Assembly (NCBI GenBank): GCA_035529075.1
Contig: DATKXK010000014.1
Location: forward strand, 326,264-390,263
From: Acidobacteriota bacterium
Lineage (GTDB): Bacteria > Zixibacteria > MSB-5A5 > GN15 > FEB-12
DNA length: 64,000 nucleotides
Direction: 5' to 3'
Below the pieces are notes generated by a model. It searched no databases and was not told where the DNA came from. It was given only the letters and a program-made list of their open reading frames with translations. A program made the translations under genes and the position numbers. Of this stretch, positions 27,028 to 46,711 are shown in pieces. The stretch's first letter is position 1; every line of letters begins with the position of its first letter.

Positions 27028-27037
27028 GAGGTTGAAG

Positions 27038-30000
27038 GTGTCACGATTCGGAACATGGATGATCCGGCAGGTCGTCTGCGCGCTTTTGCCGTTCCTGGCC
27101 GTTGGCGCAGCGGACGGTGACGGACTGCTGTACGGCAGCAAGCAGCAGGTTGCCGATAATCCGGGCGATAACCGCGTGCAGCATCGTTGTCTGACCCCGG
27201 AGATCCCCGCCGCCACCTTCATTCCGCTGGAGCGGGAACATCCCTGGTCCCTTCCGAAGCAGGCGCTCGCCGCAGACTTCGAGACCACCGTCCGGTGCCT
27301 GGTCCTTCGGTTCAACTTCCAGTACGAGGACCCGGACAATCCCAACACGACCGGCCGGGGTCGTATGGATTTCTCGCCTCACCCGCTGCCGAACGAGTTT
27401 AATTCGGCCACGTCGGAGGATTCCATCGAGTACCTTCAGCGCGTGGGGCATTTCATCGATCCGCCGCCGCACGACTCCGCGTATTTCAACCGTCATATGC
27501 GCGCTCTGCGCACCTACTGGGAGACGGTTTCGGAAGACAAGATCACACTGGACTGGGATATCTTCCCGCTCGCCGGGGATTCGGCCTACGAGTTGCCGTA
27601 CGCCATGAATCACTACGGGCGGTGCGATTTCGACGACGTGGTCGAGGGCCTGGAACAGTTTTTCCTTGACTGTATCCGGCTTGCCGACACCGTGCATCTT
27701 CTGGACACCAACCATGCGGACATCGATTTTTCCGCATACGACGCGATATTGCTTTTCCACGCCGGGTCCGACCGCCAGAACGATGTCGGCTTTCCGCCCA
27801 CGTGCAACGATCTTTTCACCGGCTTTATTCGTTTCGGTGATTCCGTAGCCGTCGACGGCGGTGCGTACTTCGTCAGGACGGCCCTCATGGTGCCGGAGAC
27901 GGCGGTCCAGGATAACAGGGCGACCGCGCTTAACGCCGTGCTGGCGCATGAGTTCGGCCACCAACTGGGGCTCGTTGACCTGTATAATACGCGCAACTTT
28001 TTCAGCCAGCTCGGGGACTTCGCCCTGATGGACAACAACGGCTTCGGCACGGGGGTTGATTTCGGCTTCCCGGCCGGCTACGCCTTCGGCACCACGCCGC
28101 TGTATCCGATGGCCTGGTCGCGCGCCCACTTAGGCCTGGTGCCCGTAGTAGATTTCCGCCGGGCGGATTCCATCCAGGTGGTGGCGGCCGAGGTACTCTC
28201 ACATGGGATCAAGATCGCGCGCGTGCCGATATCGGAAACTGAATACTATCTCATCGAGAATCGGAATATCGATATCGACGGTCTCCAGGCGGGATCCCAG
28301 TTCGATACCCTCACCAACGTCATTCTCGGCCCGGCCAGGCGGGAGCCCGACAACTCCATCGTACTGACCGGCGAATACGATTTTCTCATGCCCGGCTCCG
28401 GCCTGCTCATTTTCCACGTCGACGAGGCCGTGGCATCGCTGGATTATGACGGTGACGGAGAACCGAATTTCTTTGATAACGACCTGCAACTGGACCCGGA
28501 CCGGAAATTTATCACGCTCGTGGAAGCTGACGGCCTGGTCAATTTCGGCGGCTACTACCGGGCCGGTTTCGGCCGGGCCGAGGATATGTTCCGCGACGAC
28601 CGGCAGAACAGCTTCACGCCGAACACCAACCCGCCCGCGATTGACAATTCCGGAAACAACACGCACGTGCACGTAACGGACATCAGGCGGGCCTATGACG
28701 ACAGTAAGCCCAAGGACCCGTACGTCGACAGCATTATGCTGTTCAGACTCAGGACCGACAAGCTGGCCGAGAATTTTCCGATCCGCGCCGGTGTGCCCGT
28801 AAAAGGGCTGTCGCCGGTTGCGGATGATCTTAACGGCGACGGCGTTGACGAGATACTCGTGGCCTCGGGGAAGCTGCTCTCGGCGTTCACCTCGTCCGGG
28901 GACGACTTCCTTGAGCTGGTCGATCCCTGCGCCGCTTGCCCCACCTATTACGATACCATGATTACGTCCATCAATCGTCGCACGTCGTATCAACCTCTCA
29001 AGGGTTACCCCGTGCCGCTGTACGTTGAAGCGGACCAGCCCATCACCGCCGGTCCGGTGACGGGTGATTTCGGCGTTGCGGCGGGCGACAAGTACGTGGC
29101 TATCGGATATCCCCTTGATACGTTCGGACTGAATTTCAACGTGGTGCTTTACGGAGCACGGGACGACGACGATGACGGGCAGGCCGACGGCGTTGACGCC
29201 ATCACCACGGTCGGACGACCGATGGAGCTTTCCTTTGGTGACCGCCTGTACGTCCTGACCGACAGCGGCAAGGTGTATCGCCAGGATTCGCTGTTTTTCG
29301 CACCGTCGAATCCCACCTTTGAGTTGTCCGATGACGTATACTACGGCGTCTGCCGTCTCGGCGGTCGGTTGGTTGTGCTCGGTGGGAGGGAGGCCGTCAC
29401 CGGCGTCGGCGCCGCGACGACTGTTCACTGCCTCGATGATTCGGTGTACAGTTACCTGTTGCCCGGCAGCTACATCTACGGACCCGTCACGGTTGACGTC
29501 AATCGCGACGGCCGGCCGGAAATCGTTGCCTTCTCGGAGGACGGGGACGCCGTCTACTTGACGGTGGACACGACCAATCGGGCACCCTCGTTCTCGATTC
29601 TGAAGCAGAAGGAGACCGGATACCGGATCACCGTAAAGCCGTCGATCGCCGACGTGGACCTTGACGGCCGTCCGGACGTCATCACCGCCGGGCCGAACGC
29701 GGTTTATGCCTTCGGCGGCGGATTGAACCTGAAAACGGATTTCCCTATTGAGATTGATGACCGTTTTACGGATGCGGAGGTCATCACGACCGTCGTTGTG
29801 GCCGACATACAGCGGGGCGGTCTGCCCGAGTTGATCCTTTCGACCAGTGCCGGCAATTTCTATGCGTACGGCCAGCAGCTTGCGGCGGGTTTCCCTCTCA
29901 ATTCCGGCGAGCAGGCCCGGGTGTATTCCGACGGGGCGGCGGTCGTGTTTCATGATTCGACCGGCGGAAGGCTTGGCTACCTCGGCGGCGACGGCTGGTT

Positions 30001-30406
30001 CTACGCCTGGGAAGTCGATGCCGACACCGTGAGGAATTTCTGGCCGATGTCCGGCGGCACGGCCTCCGGCGCCTTTACCTTCGACCAGTCGCTCCTGCCG
30101 GCCGAACAGACGTTTGCCAAGAGCTTTCCCGATGAGCGTTTTTACAACTATCCCAACCCCGTGCTTGACGGCCGCACGACGATTCGTTATTTCCTTGGTG
30201 AGACGCCCGATCGCGTGACACTGAACATCTATGACCTGTCCGGTGAGCGGATCGCTCGTTTTACCGGTCCGACGGCCGGTGGTACTGACAACGAAGTCAT
30301 CTGGGAGTGCGACGGCGTAACGGGCGGCGTGTATCGTTGTGTGATCGAAGTGGATTTCGGCGGGCAACGGCGCACAGCCTTTACGGACATAGCCATCATA
30401 AGGTAG
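27038..30406 (+). CDS. M6-family metalloprotease with T9SS sorting domain
   Basis: 1122 residues from the GTG at 27038, which has AGAGG six bases upstream; an ATG seven codons later is possible. A signal peptide covers about 1-27. The catalytic zinc motif HEFGHQLGLVD begins at H304, typical of immune-inhibitor-A (M6) proteases. A middle region has FG-GAP-like sequence (VADDLNGDGVDEILVASG, IADVDLDGRPDVITAG). The last 90 residues are a FlgD-like sorting domain (RFYNYPNPVLDGRTTIRYFL, then NIYDLSGERIARF). It is probably delivered to the surface by the PorU/PorV-like pair directly upstream, from which it is separated by 10 bases. The natural substrate is unknown; self-maturation or processing of other cargo are both possible. 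Confidence 0.85.
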   Translation: MSRFGTWMIRQVVCALLPFLAVGAADGDGLLYGSKQQVADNPGDNRVQHRCLTPEIPAATFIPLEREHPWSLPKQALAADFETTVRCLVLRFNFQYEDPDNPNTTGRGRMDFSPHPLPNEFNSATSEDSIEYLQRVGHFIDPPPHDSAYFNRHMRALRTYWETVSEDKITLDWDIFPLAGDSAYELPYAMNHYGRCDFDDVVEGLEQFFLDCIRLADTVHLLDTNHADIDFSAYDAILLFHAGSDRQNDVGFPPTCNDLFTGFIRFGDSVAVDGGAYFVRTALMVPETAVQDNRATALNAVLAHEFGHQLGLVDLYNTRNFFSQLGDFALMDNNGFGTGVDFGFPAGYAFGTTPLYPMAWSRAHLGLVPVVDFRRADSIQVVAAEVLSHGIKIARVPISETEYYLIENRNIDIDGLQAGSQFDTLTNVILGPARREPDNSIVLTGEYDFLMPGSGLLIFHVDEAVASLDYDGDGEPNFFDNDLQLDPDRKFITLVEADGLVNFGGYYRAGFGRAEDMFRDDRQNSFTPNTNPPAIDNSGNNTHVHVTDIRRAYDDSKPKDPYVDSIMLFRLRTDKLAENFPIRAGVPVKGLSPVADDLNGDGVDEILVASGKLLSAFTSSGDDFLELVDPCAACPTYYDTMITSINRRTSYQPLKGYPVPLYVEADQPITAGPVTGDFGVAAGDKYVAIGYPLDTFGLNFNVVLYGARDDDDDGQADGVDAITTVGRPMELSFGDRLYVLTDSGKVYRQDSLFFAPSNPTFELSDDVYYGVCRLGGRLVVLGGREAVTGVGAATTVHCLDDSVYSYLLPGSYIYGPVTVDVNRDGRPEIVAFSEDGDAVYLTVDTTNRAPSFSILKQKETGYRITVKPSIADVDLDGRPDVITAGPNAVYAFGGGLNLKTDFPIEIDDRFTDAEVITTVVVADIQRGGLPELILSTSAGNFYAYGQQLAAGFPLNSGEQARVYSDGAAVVFHDSTGGRLGYLGGDGWFYAWEVDADTVRNFWPMSGGTASGAFTFDQSLLPAEQTFAKSFPDERFYNYPNPVLDGRTTIRYFLGETPDRVTLNIYDLSGERIARFTGPTAGGTDNEVIWECDGVTGGVYRCVIEVDFGGQRRTAFTDIAIIR

Positions 30407-30416
30407 GAGGCCTCGA

Positions 30417-31337
30417 GTGACGAACCGACGCGGACGGATATCGATCCTGATCATGGGCACGGTGCTGGCGGTGATGTACGGCCTGGCCGATGCCTCAACT
30501 GTGCGCAGCTCCGTTTTCGACCGCGGTCTGCAGGAGATCAGGGTCGCATACTCTGCTTCCGCTCTTGCCGCTCAGGACGTCGACGTCGGTGACCAGGCAG
30601 GCGGCGAATCCGTGAAGGTCGGTGCAGCCAGTGGCCTCAAGCGGCGATCACCGGCCAAGGCGTTTGCGCTGTCTTTGGCCGTGCCGGGCCTCGGCCAGTA
30701 CTACCTGGGCAGCCGCGTCAAGTCGGTGCTGTTCTTCGGAGCCGAGATAGCAGTCTGGACGCTGCACTTTACATGGCTCGCCGACGGCGGGGACAAGACG
30801 GATCTATTCGAGGCTTACGCCGACACGTACTGGGGGGGAAGTCGCTACGTTTACTTTCTCGAGACAGTGTATGGCGTAAGCAACGACCATGAGCTGGATC
30901 CCGGGGAGCCCGGAATGACTCACAACCTGCCCGATACCAAGACTCAGCAGTATTATGAGATGATCGGCAAGTATGACCAGTTCGGGTGGGGCTGGGCAGA
31001 CGCCTACGCCAACGGCAACCCCGGGGACACCGTGAACTCGACTACGTATTCGCTGCAACCTATCGACGTCGTCAAACCGGACTCACCCCTCCGCGACAAG
31101 TACGAGGATATGCGGCACGATGCCAACCGGACACTTGATCGCGCCAACAAAATGATCATGGTCTCGATGGCCAACCGGCTTATCAGCGCTTTCGAAGCGT
31201 ACTTCGCGGCCAAGAGCGCCAACAGCCGCATCAGGGAACAGGACAGCGAATTCGGACGGATAGGCGTGAAAGCACAGCTTTGCTCCTACACCTCCTTCAA
31301 TGACACGCCGTTCCTGAAAGTGAGCTACAGGTTTTGA
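30417..31337 (+). CDS. DUF5683-like membrane protein, first paralogue
   Basis: 306 residues from a GTG with GGTAGGAGG upstream. A signal-like helix spans about 8-25. The core KAFALSLAVPGLGQYYLGSR followed by a hydrophobic helix (VLFFGAEIAVWTLHF) is the pattern of the DUF5683 family, common in Bacteroidetes and relatives. A second amphipathic stretch near DRANKMIMVSMANRLISAFEA recurs in the next gene. The C-terminus (FLKVSYRF) ends like an outer-membrane strand. The role is unknown. Spacing of 10 bases from the M6 protease and 2 bases to the paralogue shows they are cotranscribed. Confidence 0.75.
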   Translation: MTNRRGRISILIMGTVLAVMYGLADASTVRSSVFDRGLQEIRVAYSASALAAQDVDVGDQAGGESVKVGAASGLKRRSPAKAFALSLAVPGLGQYYLGSRVKSVLFFGAEIAVWTLHFTWLADGGDKTDLFEAYADTYWGGSRYVYFLETVYGVSNDHELDPGEPGMTHNLPDTKTQQYYEMIGKYDQFGWGWADAYANGNPGDTVNSTTYSLQPIDVVKPDSPLRDKYEDMRHDANRTLDRANKMIMVSMANRLISAFEAYFAAKSANSRIREQDSEFGRIGVKAQLCSYTSFNDTPFLKVSYRF

Positions 31338-31339
31338 GC

Positions 31340-32146
31340 ATGTGTAAACGTGCGGGCATGAAGAGACTGGTAGCCATAGCGGTCCTGTGGGCCGCGACCT
31401 CGGCGGCCGCCCGCACCGTCCAGTTGAAACCTACGCCCGTCCGGGACGCGCTGGACGCCTCCATCCGCGAGTACGCCCTTGCCGGTGAATTCGACCGTGT
31501 CAATGATGCCTCCGCCGGCACACAGCCGTCCGGAGAACCTGCGTCGCCGGCCGGCAGATCGGTTTTCAAGGCCGGCCTGCTGTCAGCGCTGGTGCCCGGC
31601 GCCGGTGAGTATTACCTCGGCAATCGGGGTAAGGCGCGGTTCTTTTTCGCGGCCGAGGCGCTGACCTGGCTCGGATACATCTCCTTCAGAACGTATGGGA
31701 ACTGGAAGCGGGACGACTACATTCGTTATGCGTCCGTGCATGCCAACGCACAACTGGAGGGCAGGGAGGATGATTTCCTCGACCTGGTCGGATTCTATGA
31801 CGATATCGATCAGTACAACTCCCTGGCCCGCGTACTTGACCCCACCCGTCCCTACCTCGAGGACACTCCAGAAAACCACTGGCGATGGCACACCCTCGAG
31901 GATAGGTTTGCCTTTCGTCACCTCAAGAATCGCAGCCGTGACGCCTACCTGCGCGCTAATTTCATGATCGGGGTCGCCATCGTGGACAGACTGATTTCGG
32001 TGGTGGACGCGGTGCGCGACGCCAGGCGGATGCAGCGGCGTCTGGATGGGTCCTTTTCGCGGCATGACGACCGTAGAGTGCGAATTGCGGTGAACCCCCT
32101 GGCGGCCAGGAACCAGGTCACCCTGACTATCCTTACGGGTTTCTGA
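31340..32146 (+). CDS. DUF5683-like membrane protein, second paralogue
   Basis: About 268 residues from the ATG at 31340; a TTG at 31334 overlapping the previous stop and an ATG at 31358 are alternatives. The signal peptide (MKRLVAIAVLWAATSAAA) is followed by KAGLLSALVPGAGEYYLGNR and the helix ARFFFAAEALTWLGYI, aligned with the preceding gene. Later, YLRANFMIGVAIVDRLISVVDA corresponds to the second helix there. The two are therefore an old tandem duplication now well diverged. Function is unknown. They may work together as a membrane-associated pair within the secretion cluster. Confidence 0.72.
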   Translation: MCKRAGMKRLVAIAVLWAATSAAARTVQLKPTPVRDALDASIREYALAGEFDRVNDASAGTQPSGEPASPAGRSVFKAGLLSALVPGAGEYYLGNRGKARFFFAAEALTWLGYISFRTYGNWKRDDYIRYASVHANAQLEGREDDFLDLVGFYDDIDQYNSLARVLDPTRPYLEDTPENHWRWHTLEDRFAFRHLKNRSRDAYLRANFMIGVAIVDRLISVVDAVRDARRMQRRLDGSFSRHDDRRVRIAVNPLAARNQVTLTILTGF

Positions 32147-32148
32147 TC

Positions 32149-33114
32149 ATGCAACGCAACGCCCTCAGTCTTGTCCTGTCGGCATTATGTCTGTTCCTGG
32201 CAGGGTGCGGCGGCGCACGCAGAGCGGTGCCCGAATCTCGGCCGGTCGTCAAACGACCGCTTGCCCTGCTGGTCTCGCAAGAGATATCCGGCCGGATTCT
32301 TCAGCAAAGGTTGAGCGAGCCGTTCGGCCTGGCCGTGGACAACAGCGGGACGTTGTACGTGGCCGATGCCGGCAACAACCGGATCGTACATTTCAACAGT
32401 GACCTGGACCCGGATCGAGACTTCGGCGGATACGGCAGCCGCCCCGGGCTGTTTGACGGCCCGGGATTCATGGTCGTCGACAACAGCCTGAACCTGCTGG
32501 TCTCGGACGGCGGCAATCGCCGCGTGGCCCGATGCGACGGCAAGCTCAACTACGTCAACGAAATCCAACTTGTAGACGACGAAGATCCATTGAAGTTCGG
32601 GCTCATTTCCGGAGTCGCGGTGACTGACTATGGTGAGGTCTGGGTGGCCGACCGGGAAAACAACCGCGTAGCCGTGTTTGACAACCTCGGTCGCTTCGAC
32701 CGCTTCATCGGAGAGTTCGGTTACGCCGGGGGGGAACTATCCAGCCCCGAAAAGATCTACCACGATGCCGGGGGGCCGTTTGTGGTCTGCGATGCCGGCA
32801 ACGGACGTCTGGTCTTCTACGATGATTACGGCAATTACTCCCACCAGCTTGCCGCTGACGCCTTCGACTACCCCATAGCCCTCGCAGCCGATCGCCAGCG
32901 GCACTACTGGGTGCTGGACGGCCGCAGCGGCGTGCTGTTCTGCTTCTCGCTCAGCGGCGAACCGCTGTTCAGGGCGGGGCCCCTTCTGCCCGGCACCAGT
33001 CTGTCATTGCGGAAACCATCGGACGTTGCCGTGCTGCGCGATGGCCGCCTTGTTATTGCTGACACCGGCAACCACCGGTTGCTTGTTTGTACGGTCGTCT
33101 ATGAAGAACCCTGA
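32149..33114 (+). CDS. NHL-repeat beta-propeller lipoprotein
   Basis: 321 residues. The lipobox LFLAGC (cysteine about residue 21) follows a signal peptide, so the protein is membrane-anchored. The rest is a six-bladed NHL-type propeller, with repeats such as LYVADAGNNRIVHFN, LLVSDGGNRRVARCD, VWVADRENNRVAVFD, FVVCDAGNGRLVFYD and LVIADTGNHRLLVC. Such propellers bind proteins or glycans. The gene starts 2 bases after the previous stop and ends 12 bases before the large barrel gene. It is a candidate accessory lipoprotein of the secretion assembly. Confidence 0.85.
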   Translation: MQRNALSLVLSALCLFLAGCGGARRAVPESRPVVKRPLALLVSQEISGRILQQRLSEPFGLAVDNSGTLYVADAGNNRIVHFNSDLDPDRDFGGYGSRPGLFDGPGFMVVDNSLNLLVSDGGNRRVARCDGKLNYVNEIQLVDDEDPLKFGLISGVAVTDYGEVWVADRENNRVAVFDNLGRFDRFIGEFGYAGGELSSPEKIYHDAGGPFVVCDAGNGRLVFYDDYGNYSHQLAADAFDYPIALAADRQRHYWVLDGRSGVLFCFSLSGEPLFRAGPLLPGTSLSLRKPSDVAVLRDGRLVIADTGNHRLLVCTVVYEEP

Positions 33115-33126
33115 CGTCCCAGCGCT

Positions 33127-36100
33127 ATGTGCCAGGTGTCCGCGAAAGCCATACTTCTCTCAGCCGGAATCCTGATTGCTTTACCCGTTCGATCTCATGC
33201 GCGGACGGATCTGCGCCTGATCGGCGGCGAGATCTCGGAGCGCGTCACCACCGGCTCGCCGCATATCTTCTCCGGCTCGGACACCCTACGGCTCAACGGC
33301 AGGCTTCTCAGGCCCGGAATCGATTACCGGTTTGTAGTCGGTGAAGGGTACTTCGACCTGTCCGGACTGGTGCCCGGCGGTGACGACACTTTGCAGGTGA
33401 TCTATGAGCGAGTGCCCGCCTGGCTGGCCCGGTCGTACGGCCGACCGCTTCCCCGGGCGGTTCCGGCGGCACAGGGCGCGCCGTCCCTGTCATTGCCACG
33501 CCCCGAAAAACCGCCCGCCGGTTCCTTCGGCTCCCGCGTGAAGCTCTCAGGAGCCAAATCCTTCAGGCTGTCGGCACGTTCGGCGGGCGCTTCTGAATTC
33601 GGTCAGTCCCTTGACCTGACCCTGGCCGGCGAACTGGCCGAAGGTGTGCAGGTGGCCGGCTCAATATCGGATCGTGGTTTCGATCCCGCCTACGGCACGG
33701 CCAACAGCCGGCTGAGTGAACTGGACAAGGTCAACCTCGCCCTGACTTCCCGGCGGCTTACGGCGCAGATTGGAGATATCGCCGTGGCTGATCCCGGCCG
33801 CGGCCCTGGGGGCAAGGCGATCTCCGGAGCTTCGTTCAAGCTGACGTATCCCCGCTGGCACGTGCACGGAACCGCCGCTCGGCCCCGGGGAACGTATACG
33901 AGCTTCGAGTTGACGGGCCAGGACGGTTCTCAGGGACCTTACCAGATAGGCGAGGGGAGCCGGGCACGCCCCATTGTGCCCGGTTCGGAATCGGTCTGGC
34001 TGGACGGGCGGCTGCTGGAACGTGGGGCCGGCAAGGATTACACGGTTGACTACCCCACCGGCAGGATCACGTTCAACGCCAATCGGCCTATAGACGGGCG
34101 CTCGCGAATAGAAGTCGACTATGAACCCCGGATGACCGAGTACAAAGGGGAATTGCTGGCTTTCGGAACCGGTGGACAGTCCGAGGATTCAACCCTTTTC
34201 TTCTCGGCCGAGGTGCTTCGGGAGGGCGACGACAAGGATCAACTGCTCTCCGGCGACCTTTCGGACACTGACCTCGCGCTTCTTGAGGCGGCCGGAGATT
34301 CGGTTGCGGCGCGCTCCGGTGTGATACCGGACAGCACGGGGTCGTACGCACTGGTAAATGACAGTCTGCCGGATTCGGTGTATCAGCACGTAGGTGAGGG
34401 CGAGGGTGACTTCAGTGTCACTTTCAGCTTTGTCGGCAGGGGCAAGGGTGACTACAGGTTCCTCGGCTCCGACAATTATGAGTACGTCGGTCCCGGGCAG
34501 GGTGACTACCTGCCGATCGTCGTAGTGCCGGCGGCACGACGGACGTCCCGTTACAGCACGGTCATAGGCTTACGCCCCCGGGGGCTGGGGGAGCTGCGGC
34601 TCGACCTGCGCGCCTCGCGGTTCGACCGCAATCTCTGGTCGTCGCGTGATGATAATGACAACGACGGCATCTACTACGATTTGCAGTCTTATAAAGAGTG
34701 GCAGGCCAACGGCCGCACAAGCTTTGTGAAGGCGCACCGCCGCATTCGCCAGGCTGAATACAACGCCCGCGAGCGCATCAACCGGGCCGACTTCCGCCGC
34801 GATTTCCTCCTCCCGGAGGCGTTTGTTGCCGCCTCTGATGAAGCCCTGCACGATGTCAGCGCCTCGGTCAGCCCGTGGCGTGTCCTCTCCATCGGTGCCT
34901 CTTACGCCGACCTCGATTACGAGGGGGAATTCGATTCCCGATCCGGCGGCCTGGGCGCCGAACTGATTCCTCTCGACAGGTTGCGCCTGCACGGAGCCTG
35001 GCGGCGGGCCGTGGCTCGGCTGGCCGGCGCAAGCCTTTCGGGCGACGGGACCCTGACCCGGTTCGACGGCGGTGTGACCGTGGAGCCGTCCGAGGGAAGC
35101 GCCGTCTCCGCCGCATACGAGAGGGACGTGCGACGAAACGAATACTCCACCGAGCCGCGCGGTACGCGTTTCAACCGTGTCCGTCTGGGGCTGTATCGTG
35201 AGCAGGACGACGTGCAGTACGAGTACTTCGCCGAGGATTCTCTGAGCACCGGCTGGTCACAATCGCTGGTCCGCAATCGCGTCAGTGCCACGTCGAATCG
35301 TCAGATGGGCGTGCTCAGCTACGACGCGGCGGTCTCATACCAGTGGCTCAGGCAGCCCGACCTCAGAGGTGAGAATTTCCTGAGCAGGCTGAACCTGCGG
35401 TACAACAACGTACGCCGCAGGCTCATACTGGGTGCAGGATACCAGGTATCCGATGAACGGAGGAACGCACGCGGTATCACCTATCTTGAGGTTGAGCCGG
35501 GACAGGGGAATTTCTCGCGGGAAGATGGCCAGTTCGTCCCCGATCCGGACGGCAAGTATATCCAGGTCGAGGAGATTCTGTCCGATGACGCGCGGGTCCG
35601 ACGCGGCGACAAGAGCTTCCACATCGACAAAGACTGGCGGCTGATCCTGGTGCGTTTCACCTCGAATATCGAAGAGGAATTGCTCGAGGGCGGCCAAAGA
35701 AACCTGTGGTGGGTGCTTCCCTTCTACAGCGACGAGAGCCAGCCGTACCTTTATTATAACCGGCGTTACAATGCGGACGTGCGCCTTTTCCCGGTACGGG
35801 CCTTCTATGCGCTTAACCTCCAGTTCGCACAGGACCTGGAGAAACGTGACATAGCGGGGACAACGCGCCGCCGACGCGATACGCGGGGGGCCGTGTCCCT
35901 GAAACAGTCCCTTGTCAACACCTTCGTCGAGGAAAGTGCTGAGTTCTTCGAGAACGAGCGGGACGCCTACTTCACGGGTGCGGGCGAAATCAACGGCTAC
36001 AAGCTGGGGCTGTCAGTGCGCCAGGCCGTCGGCAGGGGCGAAGTCAGCGGCGGCGGCACCTTTCGACGGGCCGAAACGAGCCTGGACGAAACCTCGGTGC

Positions 36101-36378
36101 AGTATGCCCTCACGGCTGGTTTTCGGGCGGTCCTGCTCAGCCGTGGAGAACTTCGCCTGTCCACGGAACTGTACCGGCAGAACCTTGACAACCTGGCCGG
36201 GCCGCCGTCCTTCCGGCTTACAGACAACCGCCCCGGCGAGCGCGGTGCGCTCTGGTCGCTGTCCTTGCGCTACGGTGTCAAGTCCGGCGTGCGGGTGAAT
36301 CTCTCCGTCAACGGCCGGCACGCCGACGACCGGACTGCGCGTGTGGTGGCCCGCAGCGAGGTGGTGGCAAGCTTCTGA
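33127..36378 (+). CDS. Large predicted outer-membrane beta-barrel protein with SprA-reminiscent motifs
   Basis: 1083 residues with a signal peptide (about 1-24). Near residues 290-340 the pattern SVWLDGRLLERGAGKDYTVD, then YPTGRITFNANRPI and SRIEVDYEP, resembles the repeated LGGRxLxxGxDYTVDY module of SprA/Sov, the T9SS translocon. A shorter version lies near the N-terminus (LRLNGRLLRPGIDYRF). Another unit repeats G-x-G-D-Y (VGEGEGDFSV, GRGKGDYRFLG, VGPGQGDYLP, and later EPGQGNFS and DPDGKYIQ). The second half alternates polar and aromatic residues as barrel strands do, and the protein ends in VVASF. It is less than half the size of SprA, so equivalence is speculative. It could instead be a conserved FCB surface barrel of unknown role. 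Confidence 0.7.
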   Translation: MCQVSAKAILLSAGILIALPVRSHARTDLRLIGGEISERVTTGSPHIFSGSDTLRLNGRLLRPGIDYRFVVGEGYFDLSGLVPGGDDTLQVIYERVPAWLARSYGRPLPRAVPAAQGAPSLSLPRPEKPPAGSFGSRVKLSGAKSFRLSARSAGASEFGQSLDLTLAGELAEGVQVAGSISDRGFDPAYGTANSRLSELDKVNLALTSRRLTAQIGDIAVADPGRGPGGKAISGASFKLTYPRWHVHGTAARPRGTYTSFELTGQDGSQGPYQIGEGSRARPIVPGSESVWLDGRLLERGAGKDYTVDYPTGRITFNANRPIDGRSRIEVDYEPRMTEYKGELLAFGTGGQSEDSTLFFSAEVLREGDDKDQLLSGDLSDTDLALLEAAGDSVAARSGVIPDSTGSYALVNDSLPDSVYQHVGEGEGDFSVTFSFVGRGKGDYRFLGSDNYEYVGPGQGDYLPIVVVPAARRTSRYSTVIGLRPRGLGELRLDLRASRFDRNLWSSRDDNDNDGIYYDLQSYKEWQANGRTSFVKAHRRIRQAEYNARERINRADFRRDFLLPEAFVAASDEALHDVSASVSPWRVLSIGASYADLDYEGEFDSRSGGLGAELIPLDRLRLHGAWRRAVARLAGASLSGDGTLTRFDGGVTVEPSEGSAVSAAYERDVRRNEYSTEPRGTRFNRVRLGLYREQDDVQYEYFAEDSLSTGWSQSLVRNRVSATSNRQMGVLSYDAAVSYQWLRQPDLRGENFLSRLNLRYNNVRRRLILGAGYQVSDERRNARGITYLEVEPGQGNFSREDGQFVPDPDGKYIQVEEILSDDARVRRGDKSFHIDKDWRLILVRFTSNIEEELLEGGQRNLWWVLPFYSDESQPYLYYNRRYNADVRLFPVRAFYALNLQFAQDLEKRDIAGTTRRRRDTRGAVSLKQSLVNTFVEESAEFFENERDAYFTGAGEINGYKLGLSVRQAVGRGEVSGGGTFRRAETSLDETSVQYALTAGFRAVLLSRGELRLSTELYRQNLDNLAGPPSFRLTDNRPGERGALWSLSLRYGVKSGVRVNLSVNGRHADDRTARVVARSEVVASF

Positions 36379-36379
36379 G

Positions 36380-38026
36380 ATGCTTATGCGAGTATCATTG
36401 CTTATACCGGTTGTCCTGCTGATCACAACCACCGTCTGCGTGGGGGTCGAGATGACGTATGAAGGCACCCCCCCTGCAAAGGACGTAAGGCTTGAACGAT
36501 ACCTGAAGCAACTTCAGCAGGCCGGGGTCCGCCCGCAGGATCTGGCCGATTCGGCCGCGGCACACCTTCGCGACGCCGGCTACCTCGAGGCACGGGCCGT
36601 TCTTGCCGCCGATACCCTCGTCGTTGCGGCCGAAAGCCGATATCGGCTTGAACGGTTTGTAGTGACGGCGGACAGCACGTACGAGTTCTCGCCGGAGGGA
36701 CCTTTTACCCGAGATCATCTCGGTGAGGCCGTAGACAGGCTGCTGGACCGCTATCGAGATATGGGCTACTTCTACGCCACGGCGCGGGTCAGCGCAGTGT
36801 CACGACACAGCCGGCAGGTCACGGTTGATCTGCAACTCGAACCGGGGCCGGTCGTGACGATTGCCGACAATACTTACACCGGTCTTACACGCACCCGGGC
36901 GGACCTGGTGTCAAGGTACCTGCCGGTAGGACGGGGTGACACCTTGCGAGCAGCGCTCATCGAGCAATGCGAGCAGGCGGCTGAAGAGATCGGGTTTGTC
37001 AGGTTTGAGCGACCGGTGGGCATCCGGCCTCTGCCCGGGTATACTGAGGCGGATCTTGATTTCACGTTTCAGGAAAGGAAGCAGGTCGGCTTCGAAGGGG
37101 GCGGCGGCTACGTGCCCGACGATGCCGCAGGGCTTTTATGGCATCTGAACCTTTCCCTGCGTAATCTCTTCGGCGACGGCCGGGAGATTGCGATTCGCTC
37201 GGATCGACGCCAGAGGGGCAGGACGATTCTGGATGTCGGCTACCGCCAGCCGCTGTTTCTGCTGGGCGTCGGCCAGGCCACCCTGAACGTCGCCACCCGC
37301 GACTACCGTGATCAGTTCTACGAGTTCAGCCTGAGTACGGAGTATACAACCCGTATCCTGCGCTCGTACACGAGTGGCCTTGGCCTGGGGTGGAAACGCG
37401 TGGAGCCTGCTGACGCCGGCCCCGGATATTCTCGCGTCGCGGTCGACTATTCGCTGGGAGCGACGAATCTGGACAACCGCTACAACCCGTCCGGCGGTCT
37501 GGCTCTCGCCTGGCGAATTACGTACGCCTATCGCCAGTACTCGGCCACCGGCACCGACGCGGGCGGACGGCGAAGGGCCTACAACGAGACGCGCAACGAC
37601 TTGGCACTGGCCCTGTACTTCCCGCTGGCGTCACCGCTGGTGGTGCATTGCGCTCTGAACTACAGCGGCCTGGAGACCGCTGAGCCGCTGGTGCCTGAAT
37701 CGGAACTGACCTTTGTCGGCGGGCCGGGAACGATCCGCGGATTCCGTAACGAGCAGTTTGTCGCTCAGCGAACCGCCTTCGGTACCCTCGAACCGCGCCT
37801 GAGGTTCGCTCAGGCTTTTGTCTTTGCCTTCTGTGACGCCGCGTATATCAACCGCCCCGTGCCTGCCGGTGACGGCGTCGAGACCGATGAGTTCTACCGG
37901 TTCGGTTACGGCCTGGGGTTTGCCGTCTTGGACAGCCGGCGTTCGCTCAAGGTATCGATCGGCTGGAACCGGGAGCTGTCGTTCGATCAGCCGCGCCTTT
38001 CGATTGAACTGGCCACCGACCTGTAA
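36380..38026 (+). CDS. Omp85/BamA-superfamily outer-membrane protein
   Basis: About 548 residues from the ATG at 36380, one base after the previous stop; a second ATG two codons on is possible. A signal peptide (VSLLIPVVLLITTTVCVG) precedes POTRA-like segments (YRDMGYFYATARV, then VTVDLQLEPGPVVTIADN). A 16-strand-type barrel follows, with the superfamily motif GGPGTIRGFRNEQF (the RGF of loop 6). It is shorter than BamA (about 800) and has one or two POTRA units, closer to TamA- or D15-like proteins. Last gene of the cluster; it probably assembles or secretes proteins in this membrane. Clustered with the large barrel upstream, which might be its client. Confidence 0.85.
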   Translation: MLMRVSLLIPVVLLITTTVCVGVEMTYEGTPPAKDVRLERYLKQLQQAGVRPQDLADSAAAHLRDAGYLEARAVLAADTLVVAAESRYRLERFVVTADSTYEFSPEGPFTRDHLGEAVDRLLDRYRDMGYFYATARVSAVSRHSRQVTVDLQLEPGPVVTIADNTYTGLTRTRADLVSRYLPVGRGDTLRAALIEQCEQAAEEIGFVRFERPVGIRPLPGYTEADLDFTFQERKQVGFEGGGGYVPDDAAGLLWHLNLSLRNLFGDGREIAIRSDRRQRGRTILDVGYRQPLFLLGVGQATLNVATRDYRDQFYEFSLSTEYTTRILRSYTSGLGLGWKRVEPADAGPGYSRVAVDYSLGATNLDNRYNPSGGLALAWRITYAYRQYSATGTDAGGRRRAYNETRNDLALALYFPLASPLVVHCALNYSGLETAEPLVPESELTFVGGPGTIRGFRNEQFVAQRTAFGTLEPRLRFAQAFVFAFCDAAYINRPVPAGDGVETDEFYRFGYGLGFAVLDSRRSLKVSIGWNRELSFDQPRLSIELATDL

Positions 38027-38151: not shown

Positions 38152-38997
38152 GTGCAGAAACTCCTCGACGTTTTCAGGCTCATGCGCCTGGCCAACTGTC
38201 TTCTCGCTATGGTCGGCGTGGCCATCGGTGCCCGCATGGCCTGGCTGACGCCCGCCTATTACGGCCCGTTCGTAGCCGCCCTGGCCGCCTTCTTCGTCTG
38301 CGCCGGAGGCAACGTCGTGAACGACATAGTCGACGTCGACGTCGACCGCGTCAATCATCCTGACCGTGTTCTCGTTCGCGGGCGTCTCTCCGTGTCGTTT
38401 GCGCTCTGGATGTCGGTGGTACTGAACGTGCTGGCCCTGATATGCGCTATTGCGGTCAACTGGGTCGTGACGTTTGCCGTCGCCGGCGGCATCGGGCTGC
38501 TGGTCGTGTACAATCTCCGGCTGAAGAAAATCATGCTGGTGGGCAATCTGGTTGTCGCCCTCCTTGCCGGGCTGACCTTCATGACCGGAGGCTGGGCGGC
38601 TGATGCGGTTCTGACGATGGCGCTCCCGGGACCGCTCATTCCCGCCGTATACGCTCTTTGTTTCCATCTCGTCCGCGAGATTCTCAAGGACGTTCAGGAT
38701 ATCGAAGGAGACCGCCGCGCCGGGTACACGAGCCTGCCGATTCGAATCGGCACCTCGCCCTCGCTCATGATCGCACTGCTCGTATTTGCGGTCCTGCTCG
38801 TCCTTACCCTCATACCGGTGTGGATGCGATGGTTCGGCAGGACCTATGAGATAATCGCGGTGTATGTCACAGGGCTTCCGCTTCTGGCCCTGCTGATTTT
38901 CGTCTGGGGCAGTCCCCGGCCCTCGATGCTGCGGGTCGGGTCGGCGGCTCTGAAGGTGGGCATGGTTCTCGGGCTGGTCGCCCTTGCTGCCGCATAG
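38152..38997 (+). CDS. UbiA-family prenyltransferase
   Basis: 281 residues from a GTG start that gives the usual family N-terminus (FRLMRLANCLLAMVGVAIGA). This is an integral membrane enzyme with about eight to nine helices. The two prenyl-diphosphate/Mg sites are NDIVDVDVDRVNHPDR and DVQDIEGDRRAG. The NHPDR pattern is like that of geranylgeranylglycerol-phosphate geranylgeranyltransferase-type members often found in FCB bacteria, rather than 4-hydroxybenzoate UbiA. The acceptor cannot be fixed from sequence. It stands about 125 bases after the Omp85 gene. I see no terminator between them. Confidence 0.87.
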   Translation: MQKLLDVFRLMRLANCLLAMVGVAIGARMAWLTPAYYGPFVAALAAFFVCAGGNVVNDIVDVDVDRVNHPDRVLVRGRLSVSFALWMSVVLNVLALICAIAVNWVVTFAVAGGIGLLVVYNLRLKKIMLVGNLVVALLAGLTFMTGGWAADAVLTMALPGPLIPAVYALCFHLVREILKDVQDIEGDRRAGYTSLPIRIGTSPSLMIALLVFAVLLVLTLIPVWMRWFGRTYEIIAVYVTGLPLLALLIFVWGSPRPSMLRVGSAALKVGMVLGLVALAAA

Positions 38998-39076: not shown

Positions 39077-39105
39077 TTGACAGCGGCTTACGGGGTCCTT
39101 ACTTG
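39077..39105 (+). promoter_or_regulatory. Possible promoter of the Bat operon
   Basis: TTGACA (39077-39082), a 17-base spacer and TACTTG (39100-39105), 54 bases before the first ATG. The -10 box is weak. A TATAAT at 39029-39034 with a poor -35 region is the alternative. Confidence 0.4.
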
Positions 39106-39159
39106 GTCGGGCCGTTGGTTCACTGGCATTGCGTAACTCACGGATCTCTGGAAACCGGT

Positions 39160-40020
39160 ATGCTCTACAGATTGTTGTGCGCGCTCCTGCTCGTTCTGCC
39201 GGTCCCGGCCGCCATGTCGGCCGGTATCAGCATCTCACAGTCCATAGATAAGACCGAAACAGCCTTTGAGGACGTGGTGCATCTCGAGATCCGGCTTTCA
39301 TGGCCCGGACCACAATCGGCGTACCTGTTCGACCAGCCCCTGAATCCGGTGTTTGACGGGTTCAAAGTTACGGAATTCTCGTCGTCCGTGTCCTCGACCG
39401 GCTCAGGCGAGAATGAGATCACGGCCAAGACGCTTCGTTTTACGCTCGCGCCGCGCTCATCCGGTATGGCGTCGATTCAGCCGCTGACCGTCAGCTACGT
39501 CTCATGGCCTGACAGCATTCCCGGGGAACTGGTTACCGAAGCCATGGTTGTAACTATCGCCGAACGCAGGCCGACGGCCCGCTCGGAATCGGGAGATTTC
39601 TTTACGCTTCCCCGTGTGCTCGGCGGTCTCGGCGTTATGATTGTTGCGGCGCTCGTGGTGGCGGTGGTGGTTCGGCGACGTAAACCGCCCGTGATCGTGA
39701 AGTCGGCCCGTGAGGTGTTCCTCGAGAATCTCTCCCGGCTCAGGGCCGAATGTGGAAATGACCTGAAAAAGCTGCAGACCGGCGTGTATAAACACCTGAC
39801 GGACTACCTGGCCGGCGAATACCAACTGGACCTGGCCAACAGGACGGCTGACGAAGTGGCGGCAGCACTTGAGGATACCAACGTGTCACAGGCTCACCGC
39901 GAGAAAATCGTGGGCTGGTTGACCCGGGCGGAAAAAGAGAAATACAGTCCGGTTACCGGTGCGCCGGGTGAGACTGTGCGGCTCGAGGCCGAACTGCGCG
40001 AATTCTTTGAAAAAATGTAA
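39160..40020 (+). CDS. BatD-like membrane protein (first)
   Basis: 286 residues from the ATG at 39160, where a signal peptide begins (MLYRLLCALLLVLPVPAAMSA); an in-frame start 19 codons earlier would bury it. The mature part is a beta-sandwich typical of BatD N-terminal domains (ISISQSIDKTETAFEDVVHLEI), then one membrane helix (VLGGLGVMIVAALVVAVVV), then a helical cytoplasmic tail. BatD proteins occur with MoxR/VWA genes and are thought to help protein maturation or stress resistance at the membrane. This is the first of three BatD-related genes in the operon and the smallest. Confidence 0.75.
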   Translation: MLYRLLCALLLVLPVPAAMSAGISISQSIDKTETAFEDVVHLEIRLSWPGPQSAYLFDQPLNPVFDGFKVTEFSSSVSSTGSGENEITAKTLRFTLAPRSSGMASIQPLTVSYVSWPDSIPGELVTEAMVVTIAERRPTARSESGDFFTLPRVLGGLGVMIVAALVVAVVVRRRKPPVIVKSAREVFLENLSRLRAECGNDLKKLQTGVYKHLTDYLAGEYQLDLANRTADEVAAALEDTNVSQAHREKIVGWLTRAEKEKYSPVTGAPGETVRLEAELREFFEKM

Positions 40021-40044
40021 TCCTTGTAGAATTTCGGAGGACCG

Positions 40045-41034
40045 ATGAGCATTGATATCCAGGAAATCCAGGCGAAAGTCGAGAAAGAGTCTTTCTTCGT
40101 TGAACGGCTGACCGCGCAGATCGGCGCGGTGATTGTCGGACAACGGTATCTCGTGGAACGCCTGCTGATTGGCATTCTGGCTGATGGTCACATACTTATT
40201 GAAGGTGTTCCCGGGCTGGCCAAGACGCTTTCGGTAAAGACGCTGTCGGATGCCATTCAGGCCAAATTCCAGCGGCTGCAGTTCACACCTGATCTTCTGC
40301 CCGCGGACCTGATCGGCACCATGATATACAACCCGCAGAAGGCGGAGTTTTTTGTAAAGAAAGGGCCGATCTTTGCCAACATTATCCTGGCTGACGAAAT
40401 AAACCGTGCCCCTGCCAAGGTGCAGTCGGCCCTGCTGGAGGCGATGCAGGAACGCCAGGTCACTATCGGGGAGACTACATTCAAGCTTGATCAGCCGTTC
40501 CTGGTCATGGCCACTCAGAACCCCATCGAGCAGGAGGGCACCTACCCGCTGCCGGAGGCCCAGGTGGATCGATTCATGCTTAAGCTCAAGATCACCTACC
40601 CAAACCCGGGCGAGGAGCGGGAGATCATGGATCGCAACACCGGCCTTGGGACCGTCGCCGTGGATAAGGTTGTCAAGCCGGAGGATATTATGAAGGCCCG
40701 CGAGGTGGTCCGGTCGATCTACGTCGACGAAAAGGTCAAGGACTATATCGTCAATCTCGTCTTTGCCACCCGGGAACCGGAGAAGTACGGTCTGGCCGAC
40801 ACGAGTGACCTCATCGCCTTCGGCGCCTCGCCGCGTGCCAGCATCTATCTGAACCTGGCGGCCAAGGCGCACGCCTTTATGAAGGGGCGCGGTTATATCA
40901 CGCCCGAGGATATCAAGGCCATCGGGGCCGACGTGCTCCGCCACCGTATCCTGCTCACGTACGAGGCTGAAGCGGAAGAAGTGACCAGTGACGATATCGT
41001 AAAGCGCGTCTTTGACACGGTCGAGGTCCCGTAA
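40045..41034 (+). CDS. MoxR-family AAA+ ATPase
   Basis: 329 residues. Walker A GVPGLAKT (near residue 54), Walker B ILADEINRAPAK and sensor-like MATQNPIEQEGTYPLPEAQ are all intact, so it should hydrolyse ATP. MoxR ATPases act as chaperones on VWA-domain partners, here the DUF58 and BatA/BatB proteins encoded downstream. The ATG has CGGAGG upstream. Next gene after 12 bases. Confidence 0.95.
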   Translation: MSIDIQEIQAKVEKESFFVERLTAQIGAVIVGQRYLVERLLIGILADGHILIEGVPGLAKTLSVKTLSDAIQAKFQRLQFTPDLLPADLIGTMIYNPQKAEFFVKKGPIFANIILADEINRAPAKVQSALLEAMQERQVTIGETTFKLDQPFLVMATQNPIEQEGTYPLPEAQVDRFMLKLKITYPNPGEEREIMDRNTGLGTVAVDKVVKPEDIMKAREVVRSIYVDEKVKDYIVNLVFATREPEKYGLADTSDLIAFGASPRASIYLNLAAKAHAFMKGRGYITPEDIKAIGADVLRHRILLTYEAEAEEVTSDDIVKRVFDTVEVP

Positions 41035-41046
41035 AGAAGATAGAGA

Positions 41047-41922
41047 ATGATCCCCAAAGAGATTCTCAAGAAGGTCAGACGGATAGAGATCCGCACCCGC
41101 CGCCTGGTCAACGACTTGTTCTCGGGCGAGTACCATTCCACCTTCAAAGGACAGGGGATGGAGTTCGAGGAAGTACGGCAGTACGAACCGGGCGATGATA
41201 TCCGGCTCATCGATTGGAACGTCACGGCCCGCACCGGCTACCCGTACATCAAGAAATACCGCGAGGAGCGGGAGCTCTCGGTGGTCCTGCTGGTGGACGC
41301 CTCGTCCTCCGGCCGGTTCGGGACCCGCACCCGGTTTAAGAGCGAGGTGGCCGCCGAACTGTGCGCGCTGCTTGCGTTTTCGGCCATCAAGAACAACGAC
41401 AAGGTGGGGCTGATTATTTTCACCGACCGGATCGAGAAGTTCGTCCCGCCGAAAAAGGGCCGTGGCCACGTGCTGCGCCTCATTCGAGAAGTCCTCTATT
41501 TCCAGCCGGAAGGCGTTGGCACGGACGTTGTTGGCGCCATCGAGTACTTCAGTCGGGTTATCAGGCGCCGCTCGGTTGTCTTCCTGGTGTCGGATTTTCT
41601 TTCTGAGGGGTACCGGCGTCCGCTGCAGATCGCCAACAAGAAGCATGACATCATTGCTATCAGGATTTCCGACCCGCGTGAGTCGGCCTTTGATAATGTC
41701 GGCCTGATCGAACTGGAGGATATTGAGACGGGCGAGGTGGTGCTGGTTGACACGGCCTCGCGGCGGTTCCGGCGGGAATTTGCCGCCCGCGCCGGGGAGG
41801 ATGATCGTAACCTGTCCAGAGAACTCCGGCTAATCAACCTGGATTTCATCAGCATTCGGACCGATCAACCGTACATTAACCCGCTGATCAATTTTTTCAG
41901 GATGAGGGAGAAAAGACGGTAA
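41047..41922 (+). CDS. DUF58 / VWA-like protein
   Basis: 291 residues, no membrane helix. The DUF58 signature (FEEVRQYEPGDDIRLIDWNV) lies near 38-57. A VWA-type fold follows, with the metal-site-like DASSS motif (VVLLVDASSSGRFG). DUF58 proteins pair with MoxR ATPases in the same operon. Its stop shares one base with the next start (TAATG). Confidence 0.92.
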   Translation: MIPKEILKKVRRIEIRTRRLVNDLFSGEYHSTFKGQGMEFEEVRQYEPGDDIRLIDWNVTARTGYPYIKKYREERELSVVLLVDASSSGRFGTRTRFKSEVAAELCALLAFSAIKNNDKVGLIIFTDRIEKFVPPKKGRGHVLRLIREVLYFQPEGVGTDVVGAIEYFSRVIRRRSVVFLVSDFLSEGYRRPLQIANKKHDIIAIRISDPRESAFDNVGLIELEDIETGEVVLVDTASRRFRREFAARAGEDDRNLSRELRLINLDFISIRTDQPYINPLINFFRMREKRR

Positions 41923-42848
41923 TGGCTACGGTGGTGCGACACACCTTCGCGGCGCGCCTGGCGGTTTTGGCTTTTCCGTTGGTCGTGGCCGCGTTGCTGG
42001 TGGCCTGTCAATCCGAAAGCGCACCGGATGAGGCTGAGATGACGCTGCGCAAGCAGTTGGCCGGGGAACTGCGCGACAACAAGCTGTTCGAAGCAGCCAT
42101 CGAGGAATATCGCGCCATCCTGCAATTCAAGGGAGTCCCCCCACGGCAGATGGCGAATATAAACTACCTGATCGCTCGCATCTATTTCGAAGACCTCAAG
42201 GACTACCCAAAGGCTGCCTCCTACTATATGCGGGCGCGCGCCCTGGATCCCGAGGGTTCGTTCATGGCCGAGGCGTCGCAGAACCTGGTCGCGTCGCTGC
42301 AGAAGATGGGTAACGTGGTCGACGCCAGGCGGGAACTGGCCGCGGCCGCCGACGTTGACGGTCAGCCCAGGTCGCCGGACGACGTGCCGGTGGCCCGCAT
42401 CGGCGAAGAGCCGGTGTGGCGCTCGGAGGTTGAACGGGCCATACAGACCCTGCCCCCGGAACTGCAGGAACGGATACTGACGCCTGAAGCAAAAGTGGAG
42501 TTTGTTCGCCAGTACGTGGGTGTCGAACTGCTGTACCGGGCCGCCGCCCGTGAGAATTACCTGAGCCATCCCGAAATCGTCCGGCAGCAGGAACAGGTGG
42601 TCAGGAAGCTCGTGGTCGACAAGTACCTCGTCGATAAGGTGATCCCGCAGATCAGCATCGACACGCTCGACGTTCGTAACTACTACCTGGCCCATCAGGG
42701 CGACCGGTACGACGACAAACCCTACGATTCCGTCCGGGCGCAGGTGTTCCTGGACTATCAGCAGGAAAAGGCGGAGACCGCCTACAGCGAGTACATAAAC
42801 CGTCTGGCCGAAGGGGAACGGGTTGAGTTCCTCGACTACAACTGGTGA
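41922..42848 (+). CDS. Lipoprotein with TPR and SurA-like N-terminal domain, no PPIase
   Basis: 308 residues. The lipobox ALLVAC (cysteine about residue 29) marks a lipoprotein. Residues about 40-130 form TPR-like helices (FEAAIEEYRAILQFKG, YYMRARALDPEGSFM). Residues about 145-305 resemble the chaperone part of SurA/PrsA-type proteins (VARIGEEPVWRSEVERAIQT, then EFVRQYVGVELLYRAAAREN), but the parvulin isomerase domain is missing. It therefore looks like a periplasmic holdase. It is not a usual Bat component. Its position between DUF58 and the second BatD-like gene, with a one-base overlap, makes it part of the unit. Confidence 0.75.
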   Translation: MATVVRHTFAARLAVLAFPLVVAALLVACQSESAPDEAEMTLRKQLAGELRDNKLFEAAIEEYRAILQFKGVPPRQMANINYLIARIYFEDLKDYPKAASYYMRARALDPEGSFMAEASQNLVASLQKMGNVVDARRELAAAADVDGQPRSPDDVPVARIGEEPVWRSEVERAIQTLPPELQERILTPEAKVEFVRQYVGVELLYRAAARENYLSHPEIVRQQEQVVRKLVVDKYLVDKVIPQISIDTLDVRNYYLAHQGDRYDDKPYDSVRAQVFLDYQQEKAETAYSEYINRLAEGERVEFLDYNW

Positions 42849-42856
42849 GGCGTAAG

Positions 42857-43903
42857 GTGAGTGTGATCGATATCAGGAAGTCGCACCGTCGGATGACGGC
42901 CGCCCTTGTCGGCCTCGTCGTTTGCCTGGTCGGCGTCGTGCAGGGGGAAGAACCGGCCGACACGGTAGGCTCCATGCCGGGCATCGAGGTCGCAACCTCG
43001 GTGGACGTCGCGGAGATCTACATCGGTGACCTCATTACCTATACGATTTCGATCACGTACGACTCCACGTACGAGCTGATCCCGCCGCCGCTGGGGGCCA
43101 ACCTGGGCGCCTTCGACGTTAAGGATTACGAGCCGGATGTCACGACAAAACTTTCCGACGGGCGAAACCGGAGCGTGACGGTCTTCCGTCTGACGACGTT
43201 CACGACCGGCGACTACGTCATTCCGCCGATGCCGCTCTTGTTCACGCTGCCGGACAGCAGCAGAAAAGTGATTTTGGCCGAGCCGGTACCGATCACGGTA
43301 AAGTCGCTGCTCGCCGAGGCCGTTGATTCGCTCGATATTCGACCGTTGAAGGCCCAGTACGAGTTTCAGCGCGGGCTCAACCGGCTATACGTGGTGCTCG
43401 GCCTCGCTCTGCTCGTGCTCGTGGCCGGCGGTGTGCTCTGGCTGGTCGCTCGCAAGCGCAAGGAGCGACGGGCGCCGGTCGATCTTCGCCCTCCCTGGGA
43501 AATCGCCCTGGAGAAGATGGCCCTGCTGCAGGAGAGAAACCTTCCCGGATCGAGTGCGTTCAAGAGCTACTACTACGAGTTGACCGAGATTGCCCGGGAG
43601 TACCTTGGTCGGATGTACCGGACGTATGTGCTGGAGATGACCACCGAGGAGTTCCTCGAGTATTTCCGGGACGTTGCCACTCCGGACGGACTCCGGAACG
43701 GCATGATTAATTTTCTCGGACATGCCGACCTGGTCAAATTCGCGAAATTCGTTCCCGAGAAGCTCCGCGCCGAATCCGACTTCCAGTTTGTGCATGATAT
43801 GATCGATGAAGTGCGCGAAGATTACGAACGGCGACAGCCGGAGGAGATGGCCCTCGGCGGCTCCTCGACCGGCCGCGTCGCCGTGACGGGTGGGGAATCC
43901 TGA
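42857..43903 (+). CDS. BatD-like membrane protein (second)
   Basis: About 348 residues from the GTG at 42857, which has GAGG six bases upstream; a GTG at 42845 overlapping the previous stop is possible. The N-terminal signal (MTAALVGLVVCLVGVVQG) is followed by a beta-domain (VATSVDVAEIYIGDLITYTI), a membrane helix (LYVVLGLALLVLVAGGVLWL) and a cytoplasmic helical domain (FKSYYYELTEIAREYLGRM) like the DUF4381-type tail found in these operons. It is likely partner of the VWA proteins that follow. The stop overlaps the next start (TGATG). Confidence 0.78.
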   Translation: MSVIDIRKSHRRMTAALVGLVVCLVGVVQGEEPADTVGSMPGIEVATSVDVAEIYIGDLITYTISITYDSTYELIPPPLGANLGAFDVKDYEPDVTTKLSDGRNRSVTVFRLTTFTTGDYVIPPMPLLFTLPDSSRKVILAEPVPITVKSLLAEAVDSLDIRPLKAQYEFQRGLNRLYVVLGLALLVLVAGGVLWLVARKRKERRAPVDLRPPWEIALEKMALLQERNLPGSSAFKSYYYELTEIAREYLGRMYRTYVLEMTTEEFLEYFRDVATPDGLRNGMINFLGHADLVKFAKFVPEKLRAESDFQFVHDMIDEVREDYERRQPEEMALGGSSTGRVAVTGGES

Positions 43904-44949: not shown

Positions 44950-44973
44950 TAGAAAGGCAAGCAGGCTGACAAG

Positions 44974-46708: not shown

Positions 46709-46711
46709 GCA

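Follow-up and report, generated by a model that had tools for sequence, protein, structure and literature searches.

The outer-membrane translocon of the type IX secretion system (T9SS), SprA or Sov (TIGR04189, PF14349; PDB 6H3I and 8GL6), is the closest described system to the protein analyzed here. SprA forms a 36-stranded barrel, described as the largest yet found in an outer membrane (PMC7463736). Its outer face is capped, and PorV docks at a lateral opening (PMC10994853); more than 150 kDa of SprA lies on the extracellular side (PMC12611786). SprA proteins are ∼2000–2700 aa in length, with a large extracellular part. Two other groups of outer-membrane proteins are relevant: the ushers of chaperone-usher systems (FimD, PapC), which have 24 strands, and the Omp85 family (BamA, TamA, FhaC/CdiB).

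Here we describe a 1083-aa protein encoded in a window (the whole stretch of DNA analyzed, 64,000 nucleotides) of a Zixibacteria genome. It is half the length of SprA and is best described as one of a compact group of giant barrels that form a second family related to SprA.

The Locus and the Barrel Family

The gene is an ORF on the forward strand (33127–36378, ATG to stop) and lies in a cluster of T9SS genes. Coordinates are those of the window.

20539–24411, forward strand: PorU sortase (NCBIfam NF033707, 2.7e-189)
24430–27027, forward strand: PorV-family protein (NCBIfam NF033709, 5.1e-75)
26915–30406, forward strand: M6-like protein (NCBIfam NF052323, 1.9e-76)
30417–32146, forward strand: two conserved small proteins of 306 and 270 aa (weak, sub-cut-off DUF5683 similarity; conserved in most loci)
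32149–33114, forward strand: NHL beta-propeller protein with a lipoprotein-type N-terminus (Pfam NHL, 1.3e-32)
33127–36378, forward strand: predicted SprA-related giant barrel, 1083 aa (ORF; AlphaFold2 model)
36380–38026, forward strand: Omp85-family protein of the BamA/TamA type, the partner gene (Pfam POTRA, 1.3e-9; Omp85, 1.7e-9)

The PorV-family protein is itself unusual in size. It has 865 aa, of which only residues ∼586–863 match PorV; the remainder is an N-terminal extension of ∼570 residues with a second, short PorV2-like stretch at residues 25–69.

Relatives of the barrel protein were found by a contig scan with an alignment-derived motif; a first contig scan with the single protein as query found none. 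They occur in Zixibacteria, Krumholzibacteriota, WOR-3, Fermentibacteria/Aegiribacteria, Eisenbacteria, Hydrothermus, Kapabacteria, Ignavibacteriales, Rhodothermales, and other Bacteroidota, and are mostly ∼990–1330 aa in length. A Pfam scan of the 1083-aa protein gave no family above cut-off, and neither the usher domain nor the plug and barrel domains of TonB-dependent receptors (Pfam) matched it or nine relatives. The family is real and conserved, and it is unnamed in Pfam and NCBIfam. No description of it was found in titles, abstracts, and selected passages of the literature, and a literature search for SprA paralogs returned no title on a second giant barrel.

Predicted Structure

Structural models make it very likely that the protein is a giant barrel. 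AlphaFold2, run with a 51-member alignment, gave a pLDDT of 86.1 and a pTM of 0.73, and 38 long strands are counted from DSSP of the predicted model (residues 137–1082), at ∼20 residues per strand outside two long inserts. The parts of the protein, all on the forward strand, are as follows.

33211–33435, forward strand: N-terminal SprA-type module, aa 29–103, preceding strand 1 (hhalign to SprA 584–659, E 5.4e-8)
33535–33915, forward strand: predicted barrel strands 1–7, aa 137–263 (DSSP of the model)
33940–34140, forward strand: second SprA-type module, aa 272–338, between strands 7 and 8 (hhalign to SprA 598–686, E 1.3e-10)
34141–34245, forward strand: predicted barrel strands 8–9, aa 339–373 (DSSP; covered by the module alignment to SprA)
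34246–34539, forward strand: insert with conserved VGxGxGDY repeats, aa 374–471, between strands 9 and 10 (DSSP; family alignment)
34540–36372, forward strand: predicted barrel strands 10–38, aa 472–1082 (DSSP)

Turns after even strands all have 2–6 residues, and the long connections (19, 75, 98, 30, 22, 20, and 17 residues) all follow odd strands. Such an arrangement is expected of an outer-membrane barrel whose two ends are periplasmic and whose long loops are outside. Because the N-terminal module precedes strand 1, topology would place it on the periplasmic side, and the second module and the VGxGxGDY insert are by the same topology predicted to be extracellular. The C-terminal residue, Phe 1083 (codon 36373–36375), is near-invariant in the family; a C-terminal Phe is typical of outer-membrane barrels. 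Geometry for 36–38 strands and the usual shear number gives a barrel ∼64–68 Å across at the backbone (a pore of ∼65 Å).

A second model, of a Rhodothermales member that is only 22% identical, also has 38 strands (pLDDT 83); its alignment is different, yet some sequences are common to the first. The original prediction had called this a mid-size barrel and had proposed a strand count as a check. Mid-size is apt for the polypeptide but not for the predicted barrel, whose 38 strands in two models are about the size of SprA (36). The count could be a prediction artifact in which the strands form a smaller or multimeric barrel and not one giant one, and the pTM of only 0.72–0.73 in the two models leaves some room for this. 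We consider the artifact improbable, given that two divergent members have the same number of strands, albeit from partly overlapping alignments, and that short turns and long loops alternate regularly.

In a Foldseek search with the first model, SprA is third, amid BtuB and other barrels. With VIA-align, 699 residues of the first model (134–1083) are matched to SprA (133–2401; Z 13.7) in a loose superposition (rmsd 9.6 Å); none of the other 49 entries listed aligns over more than 355 residues. It is aligned length that sets SprA apart for this model and not Z, which is lower than that of several porins and FimD (14–16). SprA is not among the 50 VIA-align matches listed for the second model, which does not imply that the folds differ. 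The ushers FimD and PapC are among the best structural matches (Z 15.7 and 18.5) and likewise have an N-terminal periplasmic domain and a domain inserted early in the barrel, but fewer than 390 residues of 1083–1161 are aligned to them.

Similarity to SprA

The original prediction started from a motif resembling repeated modules of SprA/Sov, with a second, weaker copy near the N-terminus, and both are borne out. The flagged motif falls within the second module (33940–34140), and the protein has the string SESVWLDGRLLERGAGKDYTVDYPTGRITF...RIEVDYEP. NCBIfam TIGR04189 matches residues 250–334 (E 1e-6), although this match spans only positions 573–653 of the 2319 in the profile and its 26.3 bits are below the curated cut-off of 200 bits; other members of the family score 14–26 bits or have no match. 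BLAST against SprA of the same genome finds 33% identity over residues 279–369 (E 3e-5). Profile–profile comparison with 21 Zixibacterial SprA sequences aligns residues 279–368 to SprA 598–686 and residues 29–103 to SprA 584–659 at the E-values listed above, and a deeper pair of Bacteroidota-centered profiles (106 and 41 sequences) repeats both matches (E 3.5e-10 and 1.9e-5, respectively). The E-values from TIGR04189, BLAST, and profile–profile comparison therefore put the likeness of the modules to SprA above chance.

The module is present in two copies in the 1083-aa protein (29–103 and 279–368) and in one copy in SprA. The additional N-terminal copy and the VGxGxGDY insert distinguish the protein from SprA, as does the SprA_N domain PF14349, which has no match in it at E ≤ 1. 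Among outer-membrane families, profile searches tie the protein to SprA only; the family profile found no relative among PDB sequences. A related channel, one of the two identities originally proposed, is thus supported by a profile link exclusive to SprA, the same slot for the module, and a similar predicted number of strands.

Both predicted extracellular segments have strongly conserved residues in the family alignment. In the region of the second module, G270, P271, and Y272 are invariant and E288, D293, G294, G300, D304, and Y305 are near-invariant. In the VGxGxGDY insert, G405, G441, Y443, and P463 are invariant and G423, G427, G447, G459, and Y461 are near-invariant. The VGxGxGDY repeats (aa 374–471) and a related VEPGQGNFSREDGQFVPDPDGKY stretch (aa 789–810) rank among the best-conserved segments of the family, and no Pfam model above cut-off covers either. 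In several family members, the second module (aa 272–338) also weakly matches a phage distal tail protein model (TIGR02217) and a tail tube model (NF052337). Such matches suggest that the module may be a widespread small beta-sandwich common to SprA and phage tails.

Homology to SprA probably extends outside the shared module, as argued by matches that are collinear and individually weak. Here the module is inserted between strands 7 and 8; in SprA it likewise comes after early strands, and the hhalign alignment of the second module to SprA extends across strands 8–9. With the Zixibacteria profiles, strands 1–7 align collinearly with SprA 157–300. When strands 1–7, 8–9, and 10–11 are searched singly, their best places in SprA (158–300, 659–686, and 728–751) are again collinear. 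The best non-module match of the Bacteroidota-centered profiles pairs residues 152–264 of the reference member with SprA 92–196, where the SprA barrel begins (P 0.024). Scores of the flanking segments beat those of reversed decoys, but segments of Omp85, PorV, and the family's own late barrel, used as controls, score equal or higher against SprA. Significance of the flanking strands by score alone was therefore rejected: single matches mean nothing and only their order and position are informative. In the profile scan, strands 12–25 gave no SprA signal.

Coexistence with SprA

The genome has its own SprA of 2003 aa, at contig positions 394023–400034, ∼4 kb beyond the window, and it is the one match to PF14349 in a search of the genome. 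The 1083-aa barrel thus adds to SprA. Across the phylum, SprA is present in 117 of 132 genomes and in 75 of the 78 good ones. No paper that pairs Zixibacteria with type IX secretion was found in the literature searched.

The barrel family also co-occurs with SprA beyond the phylum. In a sample of Bacteroidota (the phylum of a Rhodothermales genome), 94 of 148 genomes have the barrel family; all 94 carriers have SprA, versus 23 of the 54 noncarriers (Fisher p ∼1e-17, with genomes treated as independent and kinship ignored). Of the carriers fetched outside Zixibacteria, 37 of 40 have SprA, and the remaining three are incomplete or unassessed assemblies. In the sample, the barrel family therefore occurs only alongside SprA, and SprA often occurs without the barrel family. 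The barrel family is missing from several lineages in which SprA, PorV, and the M6-like gene are retained.

A reduced translocon was the other identity originally proposed, based on the shared motif and the place of the gene in a PorU/PorV cluster. In the sense of a substitute for SprA, it is contradicted by the full-length SprA that this genome and nearly all carriers have, and we have practically dismissed it.

The Omp85 Partner and the Neighborhood

In Zixibacteria, the function of the barrel is very likely coupled to the Omp85-family protein encoded immediately downstream. This protein of ∼560 aa has two POTRA matches and a barrel domain (Pfam matches above cut-off) and matches BamA in a profile comparison (E 9e-56). 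The (V/I)RGF-type motif of L6 is IRGFR, in which R466 is invariant and G467 near-invariant. It is a member of the Omp85 family that differs from those described in having two POTRA matches at this length and in its genetic tie to a giant barrel in Zixibacteria. In 40 of 40 Zixibacterial loci, an Omp85 protein (∼430–590 aa) is encoded directly 3' of the barrel gene.

Nine loci lack the barrel gene, and each lacks the Omp85 gene too. These loci are otherwise intact, with PorU synteny kept and PorV, M6, the two DUF5683-like genes, UbiA, and Bat in order; SprA and the M6-like gene are still present in the genomes. On a tree of the M6 protein, barrel and Omp85 must have been lost five separate times, all forced by well-supported branches. 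Barrel and Omp85 are thus a unit dispensable to the T9SS locus, and their joint loss is the strongest functional evidence. Since the M6-like gene stays where the barrel is lost, its product is not the private cargo of the barrel. The original prediction had proposed co-occurrence with the PorV-like gene as a check. The two co-occur by position in Zixibacteria, but PorV is retained where the barrel has been lost, and in the Bacteroidota loci read the barrel gene lies outside this cluster. It is the 3' Omp85 gene, rather than PorV, to which the barrel gene is tightly linked and with which it is lost.

Omp85 neighbors are also found in Krumholzibacteriota, Aegiribacteria/Fermentibacteria, and Eisenbacteria. 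Most Bacteroidota loci have no Omp85 gene next to the barrel gene, so the partnership is not universal.

The NHL protein is a possible third partner. Its gene is directly upstream of the barrel gene in Krumholzibacteriota, Eisenbacteria, and WOR-3 as well, and also in Rhodothermus and another genome of the Bacteroidota sample. In the nine barrel-less loci, it was lost with the barrel–Omp85 pair in five and kept in four. The 281-aa gene at 38152 was considered as a fourth member of the unit and rejected: it encodes a UbiA-type prenyltransferase that is kept where the barrel is lost.

Proposed Function and Alternatives

We propose that the protein is a single-chain outer-membrane beta-barrel of ∼36–38 strands, a distant relative of SprA without most of the extracellular bulk. 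The N-terminal copy of the module would sit in the periplasm; outside, the second module and the VGxGxGDY insert could, by analogy with SprA, act as a small cap or gate for the ∼65 Å pore. In Zixibacteria, the barrel would work as a unit with the neighboring Omp85, which most likely inserts or folds it, and the barrel is probably built with or by this partner. The NHL lipoprotein may be an accessory. In cells with a T9SS, the barrel may be an additional wide conduit for large cargo, an accessory to the T9SS that is not essential to it. Taken whole (a giant barrel that is related to SprA, assists the T9SS as an accessory, is linked to Omp85, and serves as an extra wide conduit), we give this reading about an even chance. 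Its parts differ: functional dependence on the T9SS is moderately probable, and that the barrel conducts protein is a tentative suggestion.

A giant barrel related to SprA need not be a translocon. It could instead import large ligands or bind them as a receptor or surface scaffold, with its two modules as the seal. In most of the Bacteroidota loci read, the barrel gene stands alone; T9SS genes remain where it has been lost; and the NHL propeller encoded next to it could be a ligand-binding lid. All three points fit such a role. A general receptor would have no need of SprA, however, and the barrel is almost never found without it, in the Bacteroidota sample or elsewhere; we regard this alternative as somewhat unlikely. 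Relatedness to SprA may instead be confined to the module, if it is a mobile beta-sandwich common to SprA and phage tail proteins that was placed in an otherwise unrelated large barrel. The weak matches of the same stretch to the two phage tail models agree with this, as do the controls that reach the scores of the flanking segments and strands 12–25 without a signal. Against it, the slot of the module and the collinear flanking strands on both sides recur in two pairs of profiles, and the predicted barrel is similar in size to SprA; we hold a mobile module to be on the unlikely side as well.

The adjacency of the two genes and their joint loss in Zixibacteria could also reflect an arrangement like two-partner secretion, in which Omp85, which has the size of FhaC/TamA, is the transporter and the 1083-aa protein its secreted substrate. 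The latter is modeled as a membrane-type barrel that ends in an aromatic residue, and not as a beta-helix, and most Bacteroidota homologs have no Omp85 neighbor, which makes secretion by Omp85 improbable. Being a client of Omp85 for insertion, in turn, is part of the preferred reading of a giant barrel with an Omp85 partner.

If correct, the preferred reading has several consequences. Giant barrels would no longer be a single exception, since a second family with much shorter chains is predicted to reach the same size. The family would be an unrecognized T9SS-associated component that is widespread in Bacteroidota and other FCB phyla. Being compact, it would be a near-minimal model for giant-barrel construction, and because it is lost together with a dedicated Omp85 gene, the assembly of giant barrels becomes directly accessible to testing. 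A broader and rather unlikely extension is that FCB bacteria have two kinds of giant SprA-type barrels, SprA and a compact translocon that depends on the T9SS and that some phyla would pair with an Omp85 assembly partner of its own. Large or folded cargo would then have a second way out of the cell, and at 38 strands this translocon would equal or exceed the largest known outer-membrane barrel.

Other Features of the Locus and of SprA Genes

The UbiA prenyltransferase gene (38152–38997, forward strand) is conserved beside the locus across the phylum. Its best NCBIfam models include geranylgeranylglycerol-phosphate geranylgeranyltransferases of the archaeal type, and a link to archaeal-type lipids is possible. 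A Bat-type operon (MoxR ATPase, DUF58, von Willebrand, and BatD-like; window positions 39103–48526) follows the locus and is conserved with it.

Some PF14349 matches lie in reading frames of unusual length. Two Zixibacterial genomes have a second PF14349 match in an ORF of ∼1045–1178 aa (G022:C1:2152700–2153587 and G031:C280:2441–3127), possibly half-size SprA paralogs or fragments. Conversely, the frame around one SprA_N match (G250:C7:262811–263968) has 6523 aa, far above the usual length of SprA, and may be a fusion or a very large SprA. SelA-like and SelB-like genes, identified by eye, are located about one gene downstream of SprA (L033:12664–16003; ∼74660–78000 in window coordinates); SelA functions in selenocysteine biosynthesis and SelB is the corresponding elongation factor.
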